64,000 nt of DNA from Salinigranum marinum (GTDB lineage: Archaea; Halobacteriota; Halobacteria; Halobacteriales; Haloferacaceae), in the NCBI RefSeq assembly GCF_024228675.1, contig NZ_CP100461.1:2663398-2727397 (forward strand), written 5' to 3'. Of this stretch, positions 49,634-58,037 are shown piece after piece. The position numbers and the translations under genes were made by a program. The notes under the pieces were generated by a model. That model saw nothing but the letters and a program-made list of their open reading frames with translations, was not told the DNA's origin and did no database searches. Within the stretch, counting starts at the first letter, position 1. The number at the start of each line of letters is the position of its first letter.

Positions 49634-51379
49634 ATGTTCAGAGAGTTCCGAGCGGAGGTCGAGGAGGCCCTCTCCGCGGCACTCGACTCCCTCGATCTGC
49701 CGACCGACGATCTCGGCGTCGAAGAACCACCCGAGGACGTCTCGGCCACCCTGGCTTCGAGCGTCGCGTTCCGGCTCGCAAGTGAGGTCGGGGCCCCGCC
49801 ACCACGGATCGCCGCCGACATCGTCGACGCCATCTCGACCGACGCGTCCGCGTACATCGGCACGGTCGACACCCAGGGGCCGTACGTGAACTTCCACGTC
49901 ACCGAGGCGTACGACGAGGCGACACTCGACGCCGCCCAGGACGACGGGTACGGCCGGCTCCAGTCGAAAGAAACGAGCGTCGTGGTCGAGCACACCTCCG
50001 CGAACCCGACGGGCCCGGTCCACGTCGGCCGCGCCCGCAATCCCATTTTGGGGGATGCCATCGCCCGCTGTCTCGACTACGCCGGCTACGACGTCGAACG
50101 GCACTACTACGTGAACGACGCGGGCCGACAGGTCGCCGTCTTCACCTGGGCGTACGAGACGTTCGACGAGGACGACCTGCCCGACCCCGAGCGCGACCGG
50201 CCGGACTACGAGCTCGTGCGGTACTACAGAAAGGGGAACCAGTGGCTCGACGAGGCCGACGAGGCCGAGACAGAGGCCGCCGAGACCGAGATCGAAGCCA
50301 TCATGCAAGGGCTCGAAGCGGGGGACGACGAGACGTTCGAGCGCGTCGGCCGCGTCGTCGACCAGGTGTTGTCGGGGATGCGCCAGTCGCTCGAACGGCT
50401 CCCCGCCGAGTTCGACGCGTTCGTCAAGGAGACGGAGTTCATCCGCGACGGCTCCGCCGACGCGGTCGTCTCCCGACTCAAGGAGACCGACAACGCCGTC
50501 TACGAGGACGACGCGTGGCAGTTGGACCTCTCCGACCACGGGATCGATAAACGGCTCGTGTTCCTCCGGTCGGACGGGACGACGCTGTACACGACGCGCG
50601 ACCTCGCCCACCACGAGTGGAAGTTCGAACATTTCGACCGCGCCGTGACCGTCCTCGGCGAGGATCACAAACTCCAGGCCGAGCAGTTGAAAGCGGCGCT
50701 CGACGTCCTCGGTAACGATACCTCGCGGCTGGAGTCGACGTTTTACTCGTGGGTGAACCTCCCCGAGGGCGGGATGTCCACGCGCGAGGGCACCGGCGTC
50801 GACCTCGACGACCTGCTCGACGAGGCCGTCGCCCGCGCCCGCGACGAGGTCGAATCCCGGCTCGACGACCGCGTCCGCGACGACGACCTCACGGACGAAG
50901 ACATCGACCGCATCGCCCACCAGGTCGGCATCGGTGCGGTCCGCTACGACATCGTCTCGAAACAGCCGACGAAGTCGATCACCTTCGAGTGGGAGCGCGC
51001 GCTCGACTTCGAGGCGCAGTCCGCGCCGTACGTCCAGTACGTCCACGCGCGCTGCTGTGGGATCTTGGCCGAGGCCGACGTGGACGGGACGGTCGACGCG
51101 TCGGCGTTGACCGAACCCGAAGAACAGGCACTGCTCCGGGTCATCGCACGCTTCCCCGCGCGGATCGAAGCCGCCGCGGCGGACCTCGAACCGCACGCGA
51201 TCGCCACCTACGCCCGGGAGATCAGCGAGACGTTCAACGCGTTCTACCGGGAGTGCCCGGTGCTGTCCGCCGAGGACCCCGAGGTGCGAGCGGCCCGCAT
51301 CGCGCTCGTCCGCGCTGCTCGGCACACGGTCGCGAACGCCCTCGACACCCTCGGCGTCGAGGCCCCGACGTCGATGTAG
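49634..51379 (+). CDS. argS: Arginine--tRNA ligase
   Basis: A 581-residue class I synthetase charging tRNA-Arg. The HIGH box appears as HVGR (residues 130-133) in [20 protein letters not shown], preceded by EHTSANPTG; the KMSKS loop is replaced by [10 protein letters not shown], as is usual for archaeal ArgRS which lack a canonical KMSK. The C-terminal anticodon-binding helices include [20 protein letters not shown] and [12 protein letters not shown]. Length matches haloarchaeal ArgRS. The start ATG follows CCCTAATACC ~30 bp upstream. Confidence 0.97.
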
Positions 51380-51553: not shown

Positions 51554-51631
51554 ACGAACCGTCGTCGGAGCCGCGTAAAAGAACTTCTCGTTCGCGCTCT
51601 TCGTTCCGTCGAACGAACCAGGGACCGGGAG

Positions 51632-53149
51632 CTACCCGAAGAACCGCCCGAACAGCCCCTTCCGCTTCTTCTCCTCGGTCTCGCCGGCGTCGGCGTCCGT
51701 TGAGCCCGCGTCGTCGCCCTCGTGTTCGTCCGCGTCGGTCGCCGCGGCCGCCGCCCCGGACGGCGTGTCGTCGGGATCGGTCGCAGAGTCCGACTCGGCG
51801 TCGGACTCCGCGTCGGGAATATCGGGTGCGTCGTCCGGCTGGATCGTCACGTCCATGCCGGCGGCGTCGTCCGGGGCCGTGTCGAACGTCACCTCCCCGT
51901 CCGCGTCGGGCTCCGCCTCGGCGACCGCGTCGGCGACGGAGACCGGCTCGTCGTCGTCGGGGGGGTCGTCCGCCAGGTCGCCGTGTTCCGGTGGCTCGTC
52001 GGCCACGTCGTCGCCCGAGTCGGCGTCGGAGCCGGCACTGGACTCGACGTCCGCGAGCGTCGCGGCGAGTCCACCGGCCGAGTCCGCGTCCTCGACGCTG
52101 CCCTCGTCTTCGTCTTCGGTCTCGTCCGCGTCGGCGTGGTCGTCGTCGATCACCTCCGCGCTGGCGTGGTCCGCGTCAGCTTCGTCCGCGTCGGGTCCGG
52201 CCGGCGACGGGGCGTCGTCCGCGTCACCCGCGTTGTCGTCGAGGTCGAACACTGCGTCGAGGTCGTCGGCGGTGTCCGCGTCGGTGGCCGTGTCGAGCGC
52301 CGACGAGAGATCGAGTTCGTCGATCCCTCCGGGGGGAGCTGTCGTCTCGGTCGCGGTCTCGGCTCCGCTCTCCGGCGTCTCGTCCGCATCGACCGCGTCG
52401 GCGTCGGTCGCGGCATCGGTCGCGGCGTCGGTCGCGGCGCCGTCCGTGGCCGCCGCGGCGAGCGCGCCCGCGATCGACCGGTACGCCGCGGCGGCTGGTG
52501 AGTCGGCGTCGGACACGACGACCGGGTCGCCCGCGGCCGTGGCCGCCTCGACGGACGGGTCCTCCGGAACGACGTTGAGGAGGTCGACCCCGAACTCGGA
52601 GACGAGCGCGTCGACGTCCGCGGCCCCGGCGTCGACGCGGGTCAGGAGGAGCCCCGCGACCGGGACGCCGACGCGGTCGACGAGCTGACGGGTTCGGTCC
52701 GTGTCGCCGAGGGCGTCGGGCGACGGCGTCGACACCAGGATGACGGCGTCGGCGAGGCCGAGCGGGAGGACGGTGTCGTGGCTCAGGCCGGCACCGGTGT
52801 CGACGAGGACGACGTCGTACTCGTCGGCGAGCGCCGCGACGAGCGACCGGAGCGTGCGAGGGTCGGCCATCGCGTAGGCGTCGAGCGTCGCCGTTCCGGG
52901 CACGACGGCGAGCCCCCGCGGCCCCTCGTACACCGCCTCCAGGGGAGCGGCCTCACCGGCGAGGACGTCGTGGAGCGTCGGGCCGTCGGGCGACAGTCCG
53001 AGCATCCGACCGAGGTTGGGCATGCCGACGTCCGCGTCGACGGCCGCGACCCGGTGGCCGGCGGCGGCGAGCGCGACCCCCAGGTTCGCCGTGGTGGTGG
53101 TCTTGCCGACCCCGCCTTTCGCGCTCGCGACCGCGTAGACCCGTCCCAT
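51632..53149 (-). CDS. minD4: MinD4-like ParA/MinD ATPase with long acidic tail and membrane anchor
   Basis: A 505-residue ParA/MinD protein. The deviant Walker A motif KGGVGKTTTT (residues 11-20) has the signature lysine K11, with the Asp-rich switch DADVGMPNLG and VLVDTGAG. The ATPase domain ends near residue 235; the rest is a disordered, extremely acidic tail ending EEKKRKGLFGRFFG, a basic amphipathic helix like the MinD membrane-targeting sequence. Haloferax MinD4, which oscillates between the poles and positions archaella and chemosensory arrays, also has a long C-terminal extension, so this is the best guess. A strong TATA box (complement of 53174-53184) lies 30 bp upstream. Confidence 0.85.
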   Translation of the reverse strand: MGRVYAVASAKGGVGKTTTTANLGVALAAAGHRVAAVDADVGMPNLGRMLGLSPDGPTLHDVLAGEAAPLEAVYEGPRGLAVVPGTATLDAYAMADPRTLRSLVAALADEYDVVLVDTGAGLSHDTVLPLGLADAVILVSTPSPDALGDTDRTRQLVDRVGVPVAGLLLTRVDAGAADVDALVSEFGVDLLNVVPEDPSVEAATAAGDPVVVSDADSPAAAAYRSIAGALAAAATDGAATDAATDAATDADAVDADETPESGAETATETTAPPGGIDELDLSSALDTATDADTADDLDAVFDLDDNAGDADDAPSPAGPDADEADADHASAEVIDDDHADADETEDEDEGSVEDADSAGGLAATLADVESSAGSDADSGDDVADEPPEHGDLADDPPDDDEPVSVADAVAEAEPDADGEVTFDTAPDDAAGMDVTIQPDDAPDIPDAESDAESDSATDPDDTPSGAAAAATDADEHEGDDAGSTDADAGETEEKKRKGLFGRFFG

Positions 53150-53173
53150 GCTGTCCGAAACGAACCGTGGGGG

Positions 53174-53184
53174 ATATATAAAAT
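53174..53184 (-). promoter_or_regulatory. TATA box of the MinD4-like gene
   Basis: ATTTTATATATC on the minus strand is centred about 30 bp before the ATG at 53149, a strong match. It shares the 208-bp spacer with the divergent flavoprotein gene, whose own promoter is unclear. Confidence 0.65.
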
Positions 53185-53357
53185 TTCACCGGCCGAAGCC
53201 GATCGGAACTCTCGACGCTGGCGATCTTGGGGGGACTCGACCACCCCGCCCCGTGCGGTCACGAGCGGAACCCGGCGGCCGCCGTCAGACCGGCGTGTCA
53301 GAGATCACATCTGAACAACCCATAGACGTGAGCGGTCACACGGCCGAACCGTATCAC

Positions 53358-54776
53358 ATGGCGTCTGACATGCATCCACTCGGGGTGGTCGGTGCGCTCG
53401 GCGAGGAGGCGATCGGCGGACTCGCTCGGGACGTGCAGGGGAAACTCTTGCTCCCCGACGACGGCGCGTACGACGGCGCTCGGGACGTCTGGAACGGGCT
53501 GATCAACCGGTATCCTGCCGTGATCGTTCGTGTCGCCGACGGCACGGACGTCGCTCGGGCGGTCGCGTTCGCCCGCGAACACGATCTCGACCTGTCGGTC
53601 CGCGGCGGGGCGCACGACCAGGCGGGCAGTGCCATCGCGGAGAACGGGGTCGTCGTCGACCTCCAGAACCTCGACCACGTCGACGTCGATCCGGACGCGA
53701 ACGTCGTCACGGTCGGGTCGGGGGCCCAGACTGCGGACGTGTTGAGCGAGACCCAGGAGTACGGGCTGGCCCCACCGACGGGAAGTGCCGGCTGTCCCGG
53801 CATGGCCGGAACGACACTCGGTGGCGGGATCGGGTGGATCCGACGGAAACACGGCCTCTCGATCGACGCGCTCCGTCGGGTCGAGGTAGTCACCGCCGAT
53901 GGGACGGTCCGTACCGCGACCCCGGACCGGAATGCGGACCTGTTCTGGGCGGTCCGCGGCGGTGGCGGCAACTTCGGGATTGTCACCGAGTTCGAGTTTG
54001 ACTGCGGCGAGGTCGGCCCGATCGTCGCCGGGCTGAGCGTGTTCTATCCGCGCGACGCCGCGACCGAGGTGTTCGAGGCGTTCCGGGAGTTCGCCACCGA
54101 CGCGCCACCCGAGGCGACCGTCATCTGCAACTACGCGGACGTCCCCGCCATCCCGGGGATGCCGCCCGAGCACCACGGCGAGGAGGCAGTCGCGCTCATC
54201 GGCTGTTACGCCGGCGACCCTGAGGCGGGGATGGAGGCGTTCGCGCCGCTCCGGGCCGTGACGGACCCCCTGGTCGACAACAGCGAGCCTGTGCCGTACG
54301 AGATGCTGCACGAACTCGGCACGATGCTCCACCCGTGGGGACGGAAGTACGTCCACCGGTCCGTGTTCGTCGACGACCTGACCGACGAGATACACCGGTG
54401 CGCCCTCGAACGGACCGACGCGGCACCCGGCCGGATGGACGGCGTCGGCATCTGGCCGATGGGGGATGCGGTCGGGAGCGGGCCGGAGTCGGCGTTCGCG
54501 TGGGCCGACAAGTCACACCTGGTCGTCGTCGAGGTCGCCTGGGAGTCCCACGACAGTCCGGCACACCTGGCGTGGGCACGGGAGACCGAGCGTCGACTCC
54601 GTGACCTCGGCGGCGAGGGGGCGTACGTCGGGTACGTCGGGGTCGACGAGCAGGAGTGGGAGGACTGGCCGCGGCAGGCGTACGGGGACAGCTACGACCG
54701 GCTGTGCGCGGTGAAAGCCGAGTACGATCCCGAGAACGTCTTCCAGTCGAACGTCTCCGTCACGCCGGAGGAGTGA
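53358..54776 (+). CDS. FAD-linked oxidoreductase, berberine-bridge (BBE) type
   Basis: A 472-residue protein with an FAD-binding PCMH domain (~35-205) and a C-terminal BBE domain whose end is recognisable in YDRLCAVKAEYDPENVFQSN. The FAD loop SVRGGAHDQAG keeps the histidine used for covalent FAD, and GSAGCPGMAGTTLGGGIGW has a cysteine at the site of the second bond in bicovalent BBE enzymes. The natural substrate is unknown. The ATG at 53358 is chosen because upstream in-frame codons (from 53148) do not look protein-like. The gene is divergent to minD4. Confidence 0.85.
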   Translation: MASDMHPLGVVGALGEEAIGGLARDVQGKLLLPDDGAYDGARDVWNGLINRYPAVIVRVADGTDVARAVAFAREHDLDLSVRGGAHDQAGSAIAENGVVVDLQNLDHVDVDPDANVVTVGSGAQTADVLSETQEYGLAPPTGSAGCPGMAGTTLGGGIGWIRRKHGLSIDALRRVEVVTADGTVRTATPDRNADLFWAVRGGGGNFGIVTEFEFDCGEVGPIVAGLSVFYPRDAATEVFEAFREFATDAPPEATVICNYADVPAIPGMPPEHHGEEAVALIGCYAGDPEAGMEAFAPLRAVTDPLVDNSEPVPYEMLHELGTMLHPWGRKYVHRSVFVDDLTDEIHRCALERTDAAPGRMDGVGIWPMGDAVGSGPESAFAWADKSHLVVVEVAWESHDSPAHLAWARETERRLRDLGGEGAYVGYVGVDEQEWEDWPRQAYGDSYDRLCAVKAEYDPENVFQSNVSVTPEE

Positions 54777-54913: not shown

Positions 54914-56155
54914 ATGAGTACCGACGCCGAAGAGGTCAGCGACGACCGCCGGAAGTACGAGTTCCGGAAGGTCATCGAGGACCTCAAAGAGTACGAGGGG
55001 TCGGGGACACAGCTCGTCTCGATCTACGTTCCCCCCGACAAGCAGATCTCGGACATCGTCGCTCACGTGACCCAGGAGCACTCCGAGGCGAGCAACATCA
55101 AATCCAAGCAGACCCGGACGGCGGTCCAGGACGCACTGACGAGCATCAAGGACCGCCTGCGCTACTACAAGAACCCGCCGGACAACGGGATGGTGCTGTT
55201 CTCGGGCGCGATCGACTCGGGCGGTGGCCAGACCGACATGGTCACCAAAGTCCTGGAGAACCCGCCGGAGCCGATCCAGTCGTTCCGCTACCACTGTGAC
55301 TCGGCCTTTCTCACCGAGCCGTTAGAGGAGATGCTGATGGACAAGGGCCTGTTCGGGCTGGTCGTACTCGACCGCCGGGAGGCCAACGTCGGCTGGCTCA
55401 AGGGCAAGCGGGTCGAACCCGTCAAGTCCGCCTCGTCGCTCGTCCCCGGCAAGCAGCGGAAAGGTGGCCAGTCCGCACAACGGTTCGCCCGTCTCAGGTT
55501 GGAGGCCATCGACAACTTCTACCAGGAGGTCGCGGAGATGGCCAACGACCTGTTCGTCCCGAAGCGCCACGACCTCGACGGCGTCCTCGTCGGCGGCCCC
55601 TCGCCGACGAAAGACGAGTTCCTCGACGGTGACTACCTCCACCACGAACTGCAAGAGAAGGTCTTGGGCAAGTTCGACGTCGCGTACACCGACGAGTCGG
55701 GGCTGTACGACCTCGTCGACGCCGGCCAGGAGGTCCTCGCCGACCAGGAGGTCGTCAAGGACAAGAAACAGATGGAGGAGTTCTTCGAGAAGCTCCACCG
55801 GGGCGACGAGGCGACCTACGGCTTCGAGCCCACGCGACAGAACCTCGTGATGGGCTCCGTGGATCGGCTCCTCCTCTCGGAGGACCTCCGATCGGACATC
55901 GTCGTCTACGACTGCGACGGCACCGAGGAGTTCGAACTCGTCGACCGCCGCCACGCCACGCCCGATCACACCTGCGACGACGGGAGCGGGGCCGAGGTGA
56001 CCGAGCGGACCGACGCCATCGAGTACCTGATGGAACTCGCCGAACAGCGCGGGACCGAGACCAAATTCATCTCGACGGACTTCGAGAAGGGAGAGCAGCT
56101 GTACGACGCCTTCGGTGGCATTGCCGGCATTCTGCGCTACTCGACCGGTGTGTAA
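54914..56155 (+). CDS. prf1: Peptide chain release factor aRF1
   Basis: A 413-residue class 1 release factor that reads all three stop codons in archaea. The stop-recognition motif is NIKS at residues 61-64, and the universal GGQ (184-186) lies in KQRKGGQSAQRF, where it triggers peptidyl-tRNA hydrolysis. The C-terminal domain binds ABCE1/Pelota-type partners. CTTACTTAGC (54881-54890) is a promoter match ~29 bp upstream. The gene stands alone. Confidence 0.97.
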   Translation: MSTDAEEVSDDRRKYEFRKVIEDLKEYEGSGTQLVSIYVPPDKQISDIVAHVTQEHSEASNIKSKQTRTAVQDALTSIKDRLRYYKNPPDNGMVLFSGAIDSGGGQTDMVTKVLENPPEPIQSFRYHCDSAFLTEPLEEMLMDKGLFGLVVLDRREANVGWLKGKRVEPVKSASSLVPGKQRKGGQSAQRFARLRLEAIDNFYQEVAEMANDLFVPKRHDLDGVLVGGPSPTKDEFLDGDYLHHELQEKVLGKFDVAYTDESGLYDLVDAGQEVLADQEVVKDKKQMEEFFEKLHRGDEATYGFEPTRQNLVMGSVDRLLLSEDLRSDIVVYDCDGTEEFELVDRRHATPDHTCDDGSGAEVTERTDAIEYLMELAEQRGTETKFISTDFEKGEQLYDAFGGIAGILRYSTGV

Positions 56156-56260: not shown

Positions 56261-57097
56261 ATGACAAGGGGTGGCGACGACACGGCCGACATCCGCCGCC
56301 TGGTCGGACGCCGCGCCGAGACGCTGGCCGTCCTCGTCGGCGGGCGCTACGACAAGTCCGAGCTCACGGCCGAACTCGACGTCTCGCGGTCGACGATCGA
56401 CCGGACGATCCGCCGGCTCGAAGCGAGCGGGTTCGTCCGACGGGACGGGGGCGGGGTCACGGCGACGCTCGCTGGACGGCTGGCGCACGAGTCGTACCGT
56501 CGCTACTGCGACGAGACGGCCGACATCGCGCGCTTCGGCGACCTGCTCCGAGAGCTCTCACCGGCCGCGGATGTCGGCCACGAACTGCTCGACGGCGCGA
56601 CGGCCCACCGGAGCGAGCCGCCGGCGACGGGTCGGCCGGCGAACGAGGTGACCGCGCTCATCGGCGACGGGACAAGGCTCCGCGCCTGCGCCAGCGTCAT
56701 CAACGACGCCGCCGCGACGACGAAACTCCACGGGATGGTCACGGAGGAAGGCGGACGCGGATCGGTCGTCTACACGGAGGGCCTCGCGGACCACGTTCGA
56801 CGGCAGTACTTCCGAATGCACCACGAGATGATCGCGACCGACCGGTATCGCGCGTACGAGATCGCCGACCTGCCGTACGAACTCTTCCTCGTCGACACCG
56901 ACGACGGAACGCACGTCGTCGTGATGGTCTACGACGAAACCGGGACGCTCCGGGGGACGATCGTCAACGACACTGACGCGGCCGTCGCCTGGGGCGAGGC
57001 GGCGTTCGAACGCTACCGGGCGGCGGCGACCGAGTTCACCGACGACTTCCGGATCGGCGGGGACGGCGGCGACGGGGAGGACGATGAGAGCGAGTGA
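56261..57097 (+). CDS. FilR1-like transcriptional regulator, copy 1 of a tandem pair
   Basis: A 278-residue regulator: a winged HTH (LVGGRYDKSELTAELDVSRS, TIDRTIRRLEASGFVRRDGG, ~25-65) followed by a ~200-residue ligand-type domain (DIARFGDLLRELSPAADVGH, LVDTDDGTHVVVMVYDETG, GTIVNDTDAAVAWGEAAFER) characteristic of haloarchaeal FilR1-like regulators. It is strongly similar over its whole length to the gene at 57201-58037. AATATATACG lies ~27 bp upstream of the ATG, so this copy has its own strong promoter. Ligand and target are unknown. Confidence 0.8.
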   Translation: MTRGGDDTADIRRLVGRRAETLAVLVGGRYDKSELTAELDVSRSTIDRTIRRLEASGFVRRDGGGVTATLAGRLAHESYRRYCDETADIARFGDLLRELSPAADVGHELLDGATAHRSEPPATGRPANEVTALIGDGTRLRACASVINDAAATTKLHGMVTEEGGRGSVVYTEGLADHVRRQYFRMHHEMIATDRYRAYEIADLPYELFLVDTDDGTHVVVMVYDETGTLRGTIVNDTDAAVAWGEAAFERYRAAATEFTDDFRIGGDGGDGEDDESE

Positions 57098-57200: not shown

Positions 57201-58037
57201 ATGACGCCGGAAGACGACGCTGCGGCCGAACTCCGTCGCCTCGCCGATCAGCGAACCAACATGTTAGCGATGCTCGTCGAGGGCGGCTCCGACAAGTCCG
57301 GGCTCACCGCCGAACTCGGCGTCTCGCGGTCGACGGTCGACCGGGCCGTCCGTCGGCTCGAAGGGGCGGGGCTCGTCCGACGAGACCGGGGCGGGGTCAC
57401 GGCGACGCGCGCCGGACGGCTGGCGCACGAGTCGTACCGTCGCTACTGCGAGCGGACGGCCGACGTCGCACGCTTCGGCGATCTGCTCCGTGAACTCCCG
57501 GCGACGGCCGACGTCGGCCCCGAACTGCTCGACGGCGCGACGGCCCACCGGAGCGAACCGCCGGCGATGGGCCGGCCGGCGAACGAGGTGATCGAGCGCT
57601 TCGAACGGGCGACGAAGATGTGGATCTGCGCCAGCGCGATCAACGACGCCGAGGCGTCCGCACGGCTCCACGAGATGGTGACAGAGCGCGGCGGCTACGC
57701 GGACGTCGTCTACACGAGCAATCTCGCGTCCCACCTCCGCGAGTGGTACCTCGACAAGCGTCACGAGATGGCCGTCACCGGCCGGTACCGCGCCTACGAG
57801 ATCGACGACCTGTCGTACGACCTGTTCGTGATCGAATCACTGGACGGGACAGGAGTCGCCGTCGTCGTCTACGGCGACGGTGGCCGACTCGACGGCGTCA
57901 TCGTCAACGACACCGACGCGGCCGTCGCCTGGGGCAAAGAGGCGTTCGAGCGCCGCCGGTCGGCAGCGACGGAGTTCACCGACGACTTCCTCGCCGGCGG
58001 GAGCGACGCCGGTGCGGACGGCGACCGCGGCGGCTGA
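57201..58037 (+). CDS. FilR1-like transcriptional regulator, copy 2 of a tandem pair
   Basis: A 278-residue paralogue of the preceding gene, collinear from the HTH (LVEGGSDKSGLTAELGVSRS, TVDRAVRRLEGAGLVRRDRG) to the C-terminal VNDTDAAVAWGKEAFERRRS. It is the product of tandem duplication; identical stretches such as ELLDGATAHRSEPPA and LAHESYRRYC are retained, with divergence in the ligand region (residues ~130-180), suggesting different effectors. No strong TATA box is seen before its ATG, so it may be cotranscribed with copy 1 (103-bp gap). Confidence 0.8.
   Translation: MTPEDDAAAELRRLADQRTNMLAMLVEGGSDKSGLTAELGVSRSTVDRAVRRLEGAGLVRRDRGGVTATRAGRLAHESYRRYCERTADVARFGDLLRELPATADVGPELLDGATAHRSEPPAMGRPANEVIERFERATKMWICASAINDAEASARLHEMVTERGGYADVVYTSNLASHLREWYLDKRHEMAVTGRYRAYEIDDLSYDLFVIESLDGTGVAVVVYGDGGRLDGVIVNDTDAAVAWGKEAFERRRSAATEFTDDFLAGGSDAGADGDRGG

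Follow-up and report, generated by a model that had tools for sequence, protein, structure and literature searches.

Escherichia coli MinD, which acts in cell division together with MinC and MinE, carries its membrane-targeting motif directly after the ATPase domain and has no acidic tail. The archaeal MinD proteins of Pyrococcus and Archaeoglobus (PDB 1g3q, 1ion and 1hyq) have chains of 237–263 residues, with no tail comparable to the one described here. Nussbaum et al. reportedly found in 2020 that oscillation requires a membrane-targeting sequence with homology to its bacterial counterpart. In contrast to the divisional role of the E. coli protein, minD deletions in Haloferax volcanii leave division unaffected (accessible part of PMC11588486). 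The accessible part of a second report (PMC11621097) describes H. volcanii MinD4 as having an extended C-terminal tail whose truncation impairs motility, as do Walker mutations; oscillation is described as independent of the Walker motifs, and no clear MinE-equivalent partner as having been identified.

In haloarchaea, the ATPase MinD4 contributes to placing the motility machinery. Here we examine a MinD gene in a 64,000-nucleotide stretch of the Salinigranum marinum genome (contig NZ_CP100461.1; the whole stretch is called the window). The protein itself is of a known kind, and its tail and end motif are not new as such, the extended tail of H. volcanii MinD4 being already published (in the accessible part of PMC11621097); what is added here is a comparative anatomy of the tail and a small neighbouring gene. 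Within the titles and abstract openings of the literature on MinD4 and haloarchaeal MinD (most subscription papers lie beyond this coverage), we found no mention of tail islands, of motif loss in the family labelled f7, or of the microprotein described below.

The gene starts with an ATG, and its features are collected in Table 1. An earlier note, made from the sequence alone, had described an ATPase followed by an acidic tail of about 260 residues and a terminal motif, an architecture that is borne out by the 505-residue product. Residues 4–234 match the TIGR01969 (minD_arch) profile at 202.9 bits, narrowly over the curated cut-off of 201.75, and the deviant Walker A KGGxGKT and the Walker B aspartate are present, with K11, K16 and D117 invariant among 38 aligned sequences. 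The closest solved structures are the Pyrococcus and Archaeoglobus proteins, with 1hyq, 1g3q and 1ion as the best PDB relatives by sequence and 1g3q as the best fold relative (TMt 0.90); the fold and Walker A are also shared with E. coli MinD, and AlphaFold models the domain mostly at pLDDT >90. The 259-residue tail body contains 68 Asp, 60 Ala and 24 Glu (Asp/Glu 35.5%) and no Lys or Arg, and from residue 241 onward is modelled with low pLDDT (10-residue means of 39–62); together with the end motif EEKKRKGLFGRFFG the tail comprises 273 residues. A chance origin of this architecture is made unlikely by homology, by synteny and by the reappearance of the end motif in other genera.

Table 1. Features of the minD4 gene and the adjacent microprotein gene, in window coordinates.
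Feature	Position	Strand	Basis
minD4 orthologue, 505 aa	51632..53149	-	ORF; TIGR01969; synteny; tree
MinD ATPase domain, residues 1-232	52454..53149	-	profile, PDB relatives, AlphaFold, fold match
Deviant Walker A KGGVGKTT, residues 11-18	53096..53119	-	K11, G12, G13, G15, K16, T17 invariant in 38-sequence alignment
Walker B region DVVLVDTGAG, with D117	52787..52816	-	D117 invariant in 38-sequence alignment
Acidic tail body, residues 233-491, no K/R	51677..52453	-	composition; low pLDDT; length hypervariable among orthologues
Tail island GGIDELDLSSALD, moderately conserved	52292..52330	-	alignment of 4 Salinigranum
Tail island GGLAATLADVES, conserved	52040..52075	-	alignment of 4 Salinigranum
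Tail island AVAEAEPD, motif [ILV]x[DES]AE[SPA]	51905..51928	-	motif counts, Salinigranum alignment
Tail island IPDAESD, motif class [ILV]x[DES]AE[SPA]	51800..51820	-	motif counts, Salinigranum alignment
Putative C-terminal membrane-targeting motif EEKKRKGLFGRFFG	51635..51676	-	likeness to E. coli MinD end EEEKKGFLKRLFGG; hydrophobic end in 109/168 orthologues
Predicted single-TM microprotein gene, 46 aa	51413..51553	-	ORF; hydropathy; recurrence behind minD4; pN/pS
TATA-like element TTCTTTTA	51576..51583	-	about 25 nt upstream of microprotein start

The final 14 residues combine five Lys/Arg with four large hydrophobic residues, and this hydrophobic-basic C-terminus resembles the one in E. coli MinD (EEEKKGFLKRLFGG in the K-12 record). 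The same note had called this segment a membrane-targeting helix, a label of which the first half is favoured by the resemblance, whereas the second gains no support from the hydrophobic moment: over the last 11–14 residues the moment is not above that of shuffles of the same residues, and for the last 12 its value of 0.27 is reached by 70% of 5000 shuffles. The moment was accordingly dropped as proof of an amphipathic helix, and the word ‘helix’ draws its support from homology with the established MinD motif. AlphaFold places a short helix at residues 500–504, with low confidence.

The gene is flanked by argS (49634–51379) and prf1 (54914–56155), one on either side. Of 168 orthologues, 142 have one or both of these genes in the fetched flank and 26 have neither there. 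Genus g7 was identified as Haloferax through its member G126, whose CetZ1 differs very little from PDB 4b46, which we take to be H. volcanii CetZ1. Among TIGR01969 matches at 1e-15 in four Haloferax genomes, the orthologue is the sole long-tailed MinD, and two of the genomes carry three MinD genes on a single contig, where the orthologue's distances are 223 and 262 kb to one paralogue and 67 and 72 kb to the other. The H. volcanii locus tags, given in the accessible part of PMC11588486, are HVO_0595 for MinD2, HVO_0322 for MinD4 and HVO_0225 for MinD1. The paralogue spacing matches the order HVO_0595, HVO_0322, HVO_0225, and the window gene is therefore most likely the Salinigranum orthologue of haloarchaeal MinD4 (HVO_0322), as judged from gene order and from the paralogue spacing and tail in Haloferax; the note's ‘MinD4-like’ was thus well chosen. 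In a tree of the ATPase domain, family f1 groups with Haloferax (90/78); deeper branching is weakly supported and the orthologue label requires five changes, so the argument for orthology is carried by synteny.

Shared with H. volcanii MinD4, the inferred orthologue, are the argS/prf1 neighbourhood (as seen in Haloferax genomes), the deviant Walker A and a long tail, and the Haloferax relatives end in KKKGFFSRFLG, similar to the end of the window protein. The tails themselves differ: including the end motif, that of the window has 273 residues vs 359–489 in seven Haloferax genomes, lacks the [IV]PF and VYTTSL islands, carries islands of its own (GGLAATLADVES and IPDAESD), and has a spacer that aligns poorly with theirs. 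The window's own genome contains two matches to the archaellum profile PF04659, as well as further MinD-like ATPases. One of these, L002 (C1:1954163-1955080), is a second long-tailed Salinigranum MinD, whose domain is 45% identical to that of the window protein; its 253-residue tail ends in SKQSTAKRFIDRAIEIVDRRGD, it falls in a different tree clade, and neither argS nor prf1 lies in its fetched flank. Two adjacent copies of the L002 type are found in each of two other genomes, G294 (L043) and G295 (L044).

For comparison across species we used 168 orthologues from 168 genomes, leaving out 21 of 189 MinD rows: same-genome paralogues, duplicates (L007, L077, L078), a bacterial locus (L079), and two long-branched loci lacking argS and prf1 in the flank, L162 and L189 (L162 has a hydrophobic end). 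At 1e-40, 245 of 293 genomes gave a match; because only part of these was fetched, weaker-scoring orthologues are under-sampled. Genome-level counts, for archaella and for the microprotein, cover 165 genomes, as three other Salinigranum genomes lie outside those sets. Tail length was taken as the number of residues after position 232, with the end motif counted in, and an end was scored as hydrophobic if the last 12 residues included at least three of F, I, L, M, V or W.

The cross-species comparison of tail length proposed in the earlier note gave a range of 15 to 489 residues. Tails are long in families f1 (67–489, n = 53), f6 (166–237, n = 9) and f17 (238–372, n = 15), and shorter in f4 (35–134, n = 17, median 39), f7 (24–100, n = 57) and f10 (15–19, n = 2); six more families were sampled thinly. 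A hydrophobic end is present in 109 of the 168, comprising every orthologue outside f7 and f10, and in f1 it is retained across the whole range of tail lengths. The succession of tail and motif, presented in the note as a special feature, is therefore real but common to long-tailed orthologues of families f1, f6, f8, f16 and f17, and the extended tail of H. volcanii MinD4 is already published (in the accessible part of PMC11621097).

The hydrophobic end is missing from all 57 f7 and both f10 orthologues. These 59 proteins refute the universality of the terminal helix, whose absence from orthologues the note had named as evidence against its proposal, and do not refute a function in the window's clade. 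Most f7 C-termini (51 of 57) instead carry a segment like VSSAITEAE or DDVSSAITEAESD, the latter exactly in 28. The tree places f7 and f10 together with f6 and f8 (96/86), and since these neighbours keep longer tails and a hydrophobic end, the simplest reading of the phylogeny is that the end motif was lost in f7 and f10. We detected by eye no relic of the motif past the stop codon of four f7 genes (three-frame translation, 99 codons downstream), and no other MinD bearing it in f7 or f10 among the C-termini read, which came from TIGR01969 matches at 1e-15 in five genomes (L223 and L229 are not among them). Family f7 may correspond to the Natrialbaceae, and genus g2 to Halorubrum, guesses of ours that carry no weight.

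Within the long tails, short islands are conserved in a drifting spacer. All seven Haloferax tails contain PLVAEAE and EEGVYTT[ST]LVEE, and five DEPLVAEAEP, ahead of KKKGFF-type ends, and the four Salinigranum tails share GGxAxxLADxE, VAxxVxEAEPDA and IPDAE ahead of GLFxRFFG; in both genera the intervening spacer aligns poorly. Outside f7, 26 genera have tails of at least 120 residues; among them, the pattern [DEAQSH][IV]PF occurs in 15 (300 shuffles: mean 0.2, maximum 3) and [ILV]x[DES]AE[SPA] in 13 (mean 1.8, maximum 6), counts that overstate independence because the patterns were picked post hoc, after inspection of the tails, and the genera share descent. The second pattern is also present in 18 of 21 f7 genera, vs a shuffle maximum of 3. 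Among the 16 genera outside f7 whose tails are short, the first pattern is absent and the second occurs in a single genus. When the pattern elements were reordered, the real [DEAQSH][IV]PF alone among 24 orderings reached 15 genera, and for [ILV]x[DES]AE[SPA] three of 720 orderings reached 13, namely the real pattern plus two orders closely resembling it. The window tail carries [ILV]x[DES]AE[SPA] twice and lacks [IV]PF. Judged by these alignments and counts, long tails are built of conserved short islands and spacer, which makes of the MinD4 tail, otherwise a curiosity, a set of short islands open to mutation. Docking of the f7 terminal island onto its own domain was considered and dropped, as AlphaFold gave no confident placement (pLDDT about 42), and in the AlphaFold model the window tail, likewise of low confidence, shows nothing to suggest that it docks onto the domain.

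The tail could be a mere solubility or spacer extension of the sort typical of halophilic acidic proteins, drifting neutrally in length and sequence while the end motif alone counts. Such a reading accommodates the generic composition of the tail, the wide variation in its length inside families and genera, and the 16 of 17 f4 orthologues that combine a hydrophobic end with tails of only 35–67 residues; we nevertheless regard it as unlikely, given that the islands exceed composition shuffles and that the 51 f7 orthologues retain a terminal island-like segment despite having lost the hydrophobic motif. The low-confidence modelling and drifting length of the tail agree with the flexible tether suggested in the note, whereas a plain tether would not need conserved islands. 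A role in sensing charge at the membrane, as the note suggested, or salt could be read from 259 residues without Lys or Arg adjoining a Lys/Arg-rich end, but is very improbable: haloarchaeal proteins commonly have acidic disordered stretches, and f7 tails, devoid of the end motif, are similarly acidic (mean net charge per tail-body residue of −0.32 vs −0.35 in f1).

We favour, with a probability of roughly 0.7, an explanation in which MinD4 is an ATP-switched protein tethered through its acidic tail to a membrane motif, with the islands docking partners. The ATP-bound deviant Walker A ATPase would dimerise, placing two C-terminal motifs side by side and thereby allowing membrane binding, and hydrolysis would release the dimer from the membrane. 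Each motif would sit at the end of a disordered acidic strand of about 260 residues without a basic residue, so that the ATPase could extend well off the membrane, and the conserved islands would dock partners from the polar motility or chemosensory machinery. Membrane binding, ATP switching and polar patches we infer by analogy with MinD of E. coli and with MinD4 of H. volcanii; the docking of partners by the islands we only infer. A simple ATP-switch cycle fits poorly, because H. volcanii MinD4 has been described as oscillating without intact Walker motifs (accessible part of PMC11621097).

Archaellum presence was scored as a PF04659 match in each genome. Such matches occur in 91 of 106 motif-bearing genomes vs 39 of 59 motif-less ones (Fisher p 0.005, with kinship ignored), and tails are longer in archaellate genomes (median 148.5 vs 62; p 0.013, kinship likewise ignored). 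Archaella as a strict driver of motif retention were rejected on exceptions in both directions: because 39 of the 59 motif-less genomes are archaellate and 15 of the 106 motif-bearing ones are not (five of these 15 being <90% complete), neither needs the other, and the association is best described as loose. Family f7, which is large and lacks the membrane motif, provides a natural experiment in this respect, with 37 of its 57 sampled genomes matching the archaellum profile.

Directly behind minD4, 78 nt past its stop codon and on the same strand, lies a small ORF encoding MADSDAVPFWWLVLFLLLALGLGAATVLGVGGSLIAGLVTPVPVAG, a predicted microprotein of 46 residues that contains a single, strongly hydrophobic stretch. 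A profile built from 19 genus seeds (which match by construction) detects it in 65 of the 168 fetched orthologue loci, in all 65 on the minD4 strand, at a median distance of about 45 nt past the minD4 stop and in 64 cases within 172 nt; the single outlier, in another Salinigranum, lies 1538 nt behind the stop. In genome G242 the match lies about 40 nt behind minD4, just past the fetched end, and overall, relatives follow minD4 in 66 of 168 genomes. None matched at the MinD paralogue loci examined. Genome-wide, 101 of 293 genomes and 33 of 88 genera contain a match, the weakest of which, near E 0.001, are doubtful; among the orthologue genomes the figure is 61 of 165, of which 60 have a match in the fetched minD4 locus too.

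In 11 genera, pairwise pN/pS values computed over 27 codons range from 0.00 to 0.42, which strongly supports the ORF as a real gene, one under purifying selection. For three of the sequences, the best Pfam and NCBIfam matches fell far under the cut-offs, giving no named family. Upstream of its start the AT fraction rises to 0.90 at positions −27 and −26 (49 loci), a peak of the kind expected of leaderless archaeal promoters.

The conserved position and low pN/pS raise the alternative that MinD4 membrane binding is aided or replaced by this single-TM microprotein, bound by the tail islands. It gains from the fact that only three of 57 f7 genomes retain the microprotein, in a family that has likewise lost the end motif, together with much of its tail. 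At E 0.001 genome-wide, however, no microprotein match was obtained in 48 of the 106 genomes that bear the motif, among them 21 of 50 in f1 (all 21 retaining tail and end motif) and 17 of 17 in genus g2, and with a promoter-like element of its own it need not act with minD4; on balance this alternative is unlikely. As it went undetected in 54 of 57 f7 and 21 of 50 f1 genomes, the microprotein is a candidate MinD4 partner that would be accessory at most. A stronger version, in which it is a dedicated partner (anchor, landmark or functional stand-in for MinE) engaging the tail islands, such that patterning in many haloarchaea would be a two-component process whose small half has been overlooked, is quite unlikely. 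The layout does resemble that of E. coli, where minE lies directly behind minD, a likeness of arrangement and not of sequence. A conserved small predicted membrane protein beside minD4 is of interest as a partner candidate, given that no clear MinE equivalent is described in the accessible part of PMC11621097.

In family f9 (L066, L167), a different small ORF follows minD (MVEISTVIIGLLTVLL... and MVEVTSIIIGLLTILL..., 74–76 residues, with one hydrophobic N-terminal stretch). On the other side of the window's minD4, between it and prf1, is an ORF for a FAD-binding, berberine-bridge-like oxidoreductase (53148–54776, + strand), whose true start probably lies further downstream because the longest ORF begins at 53148, overlapping the start codon of minD4. 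Two adjacent, similar regulators of the FilR1/HVO_A0261 type (PF08350, PF25213; 278 residues each) are encoded at 56261–57097 and 57201–58037 on the + strand, and possibly represent a tandem duplication.
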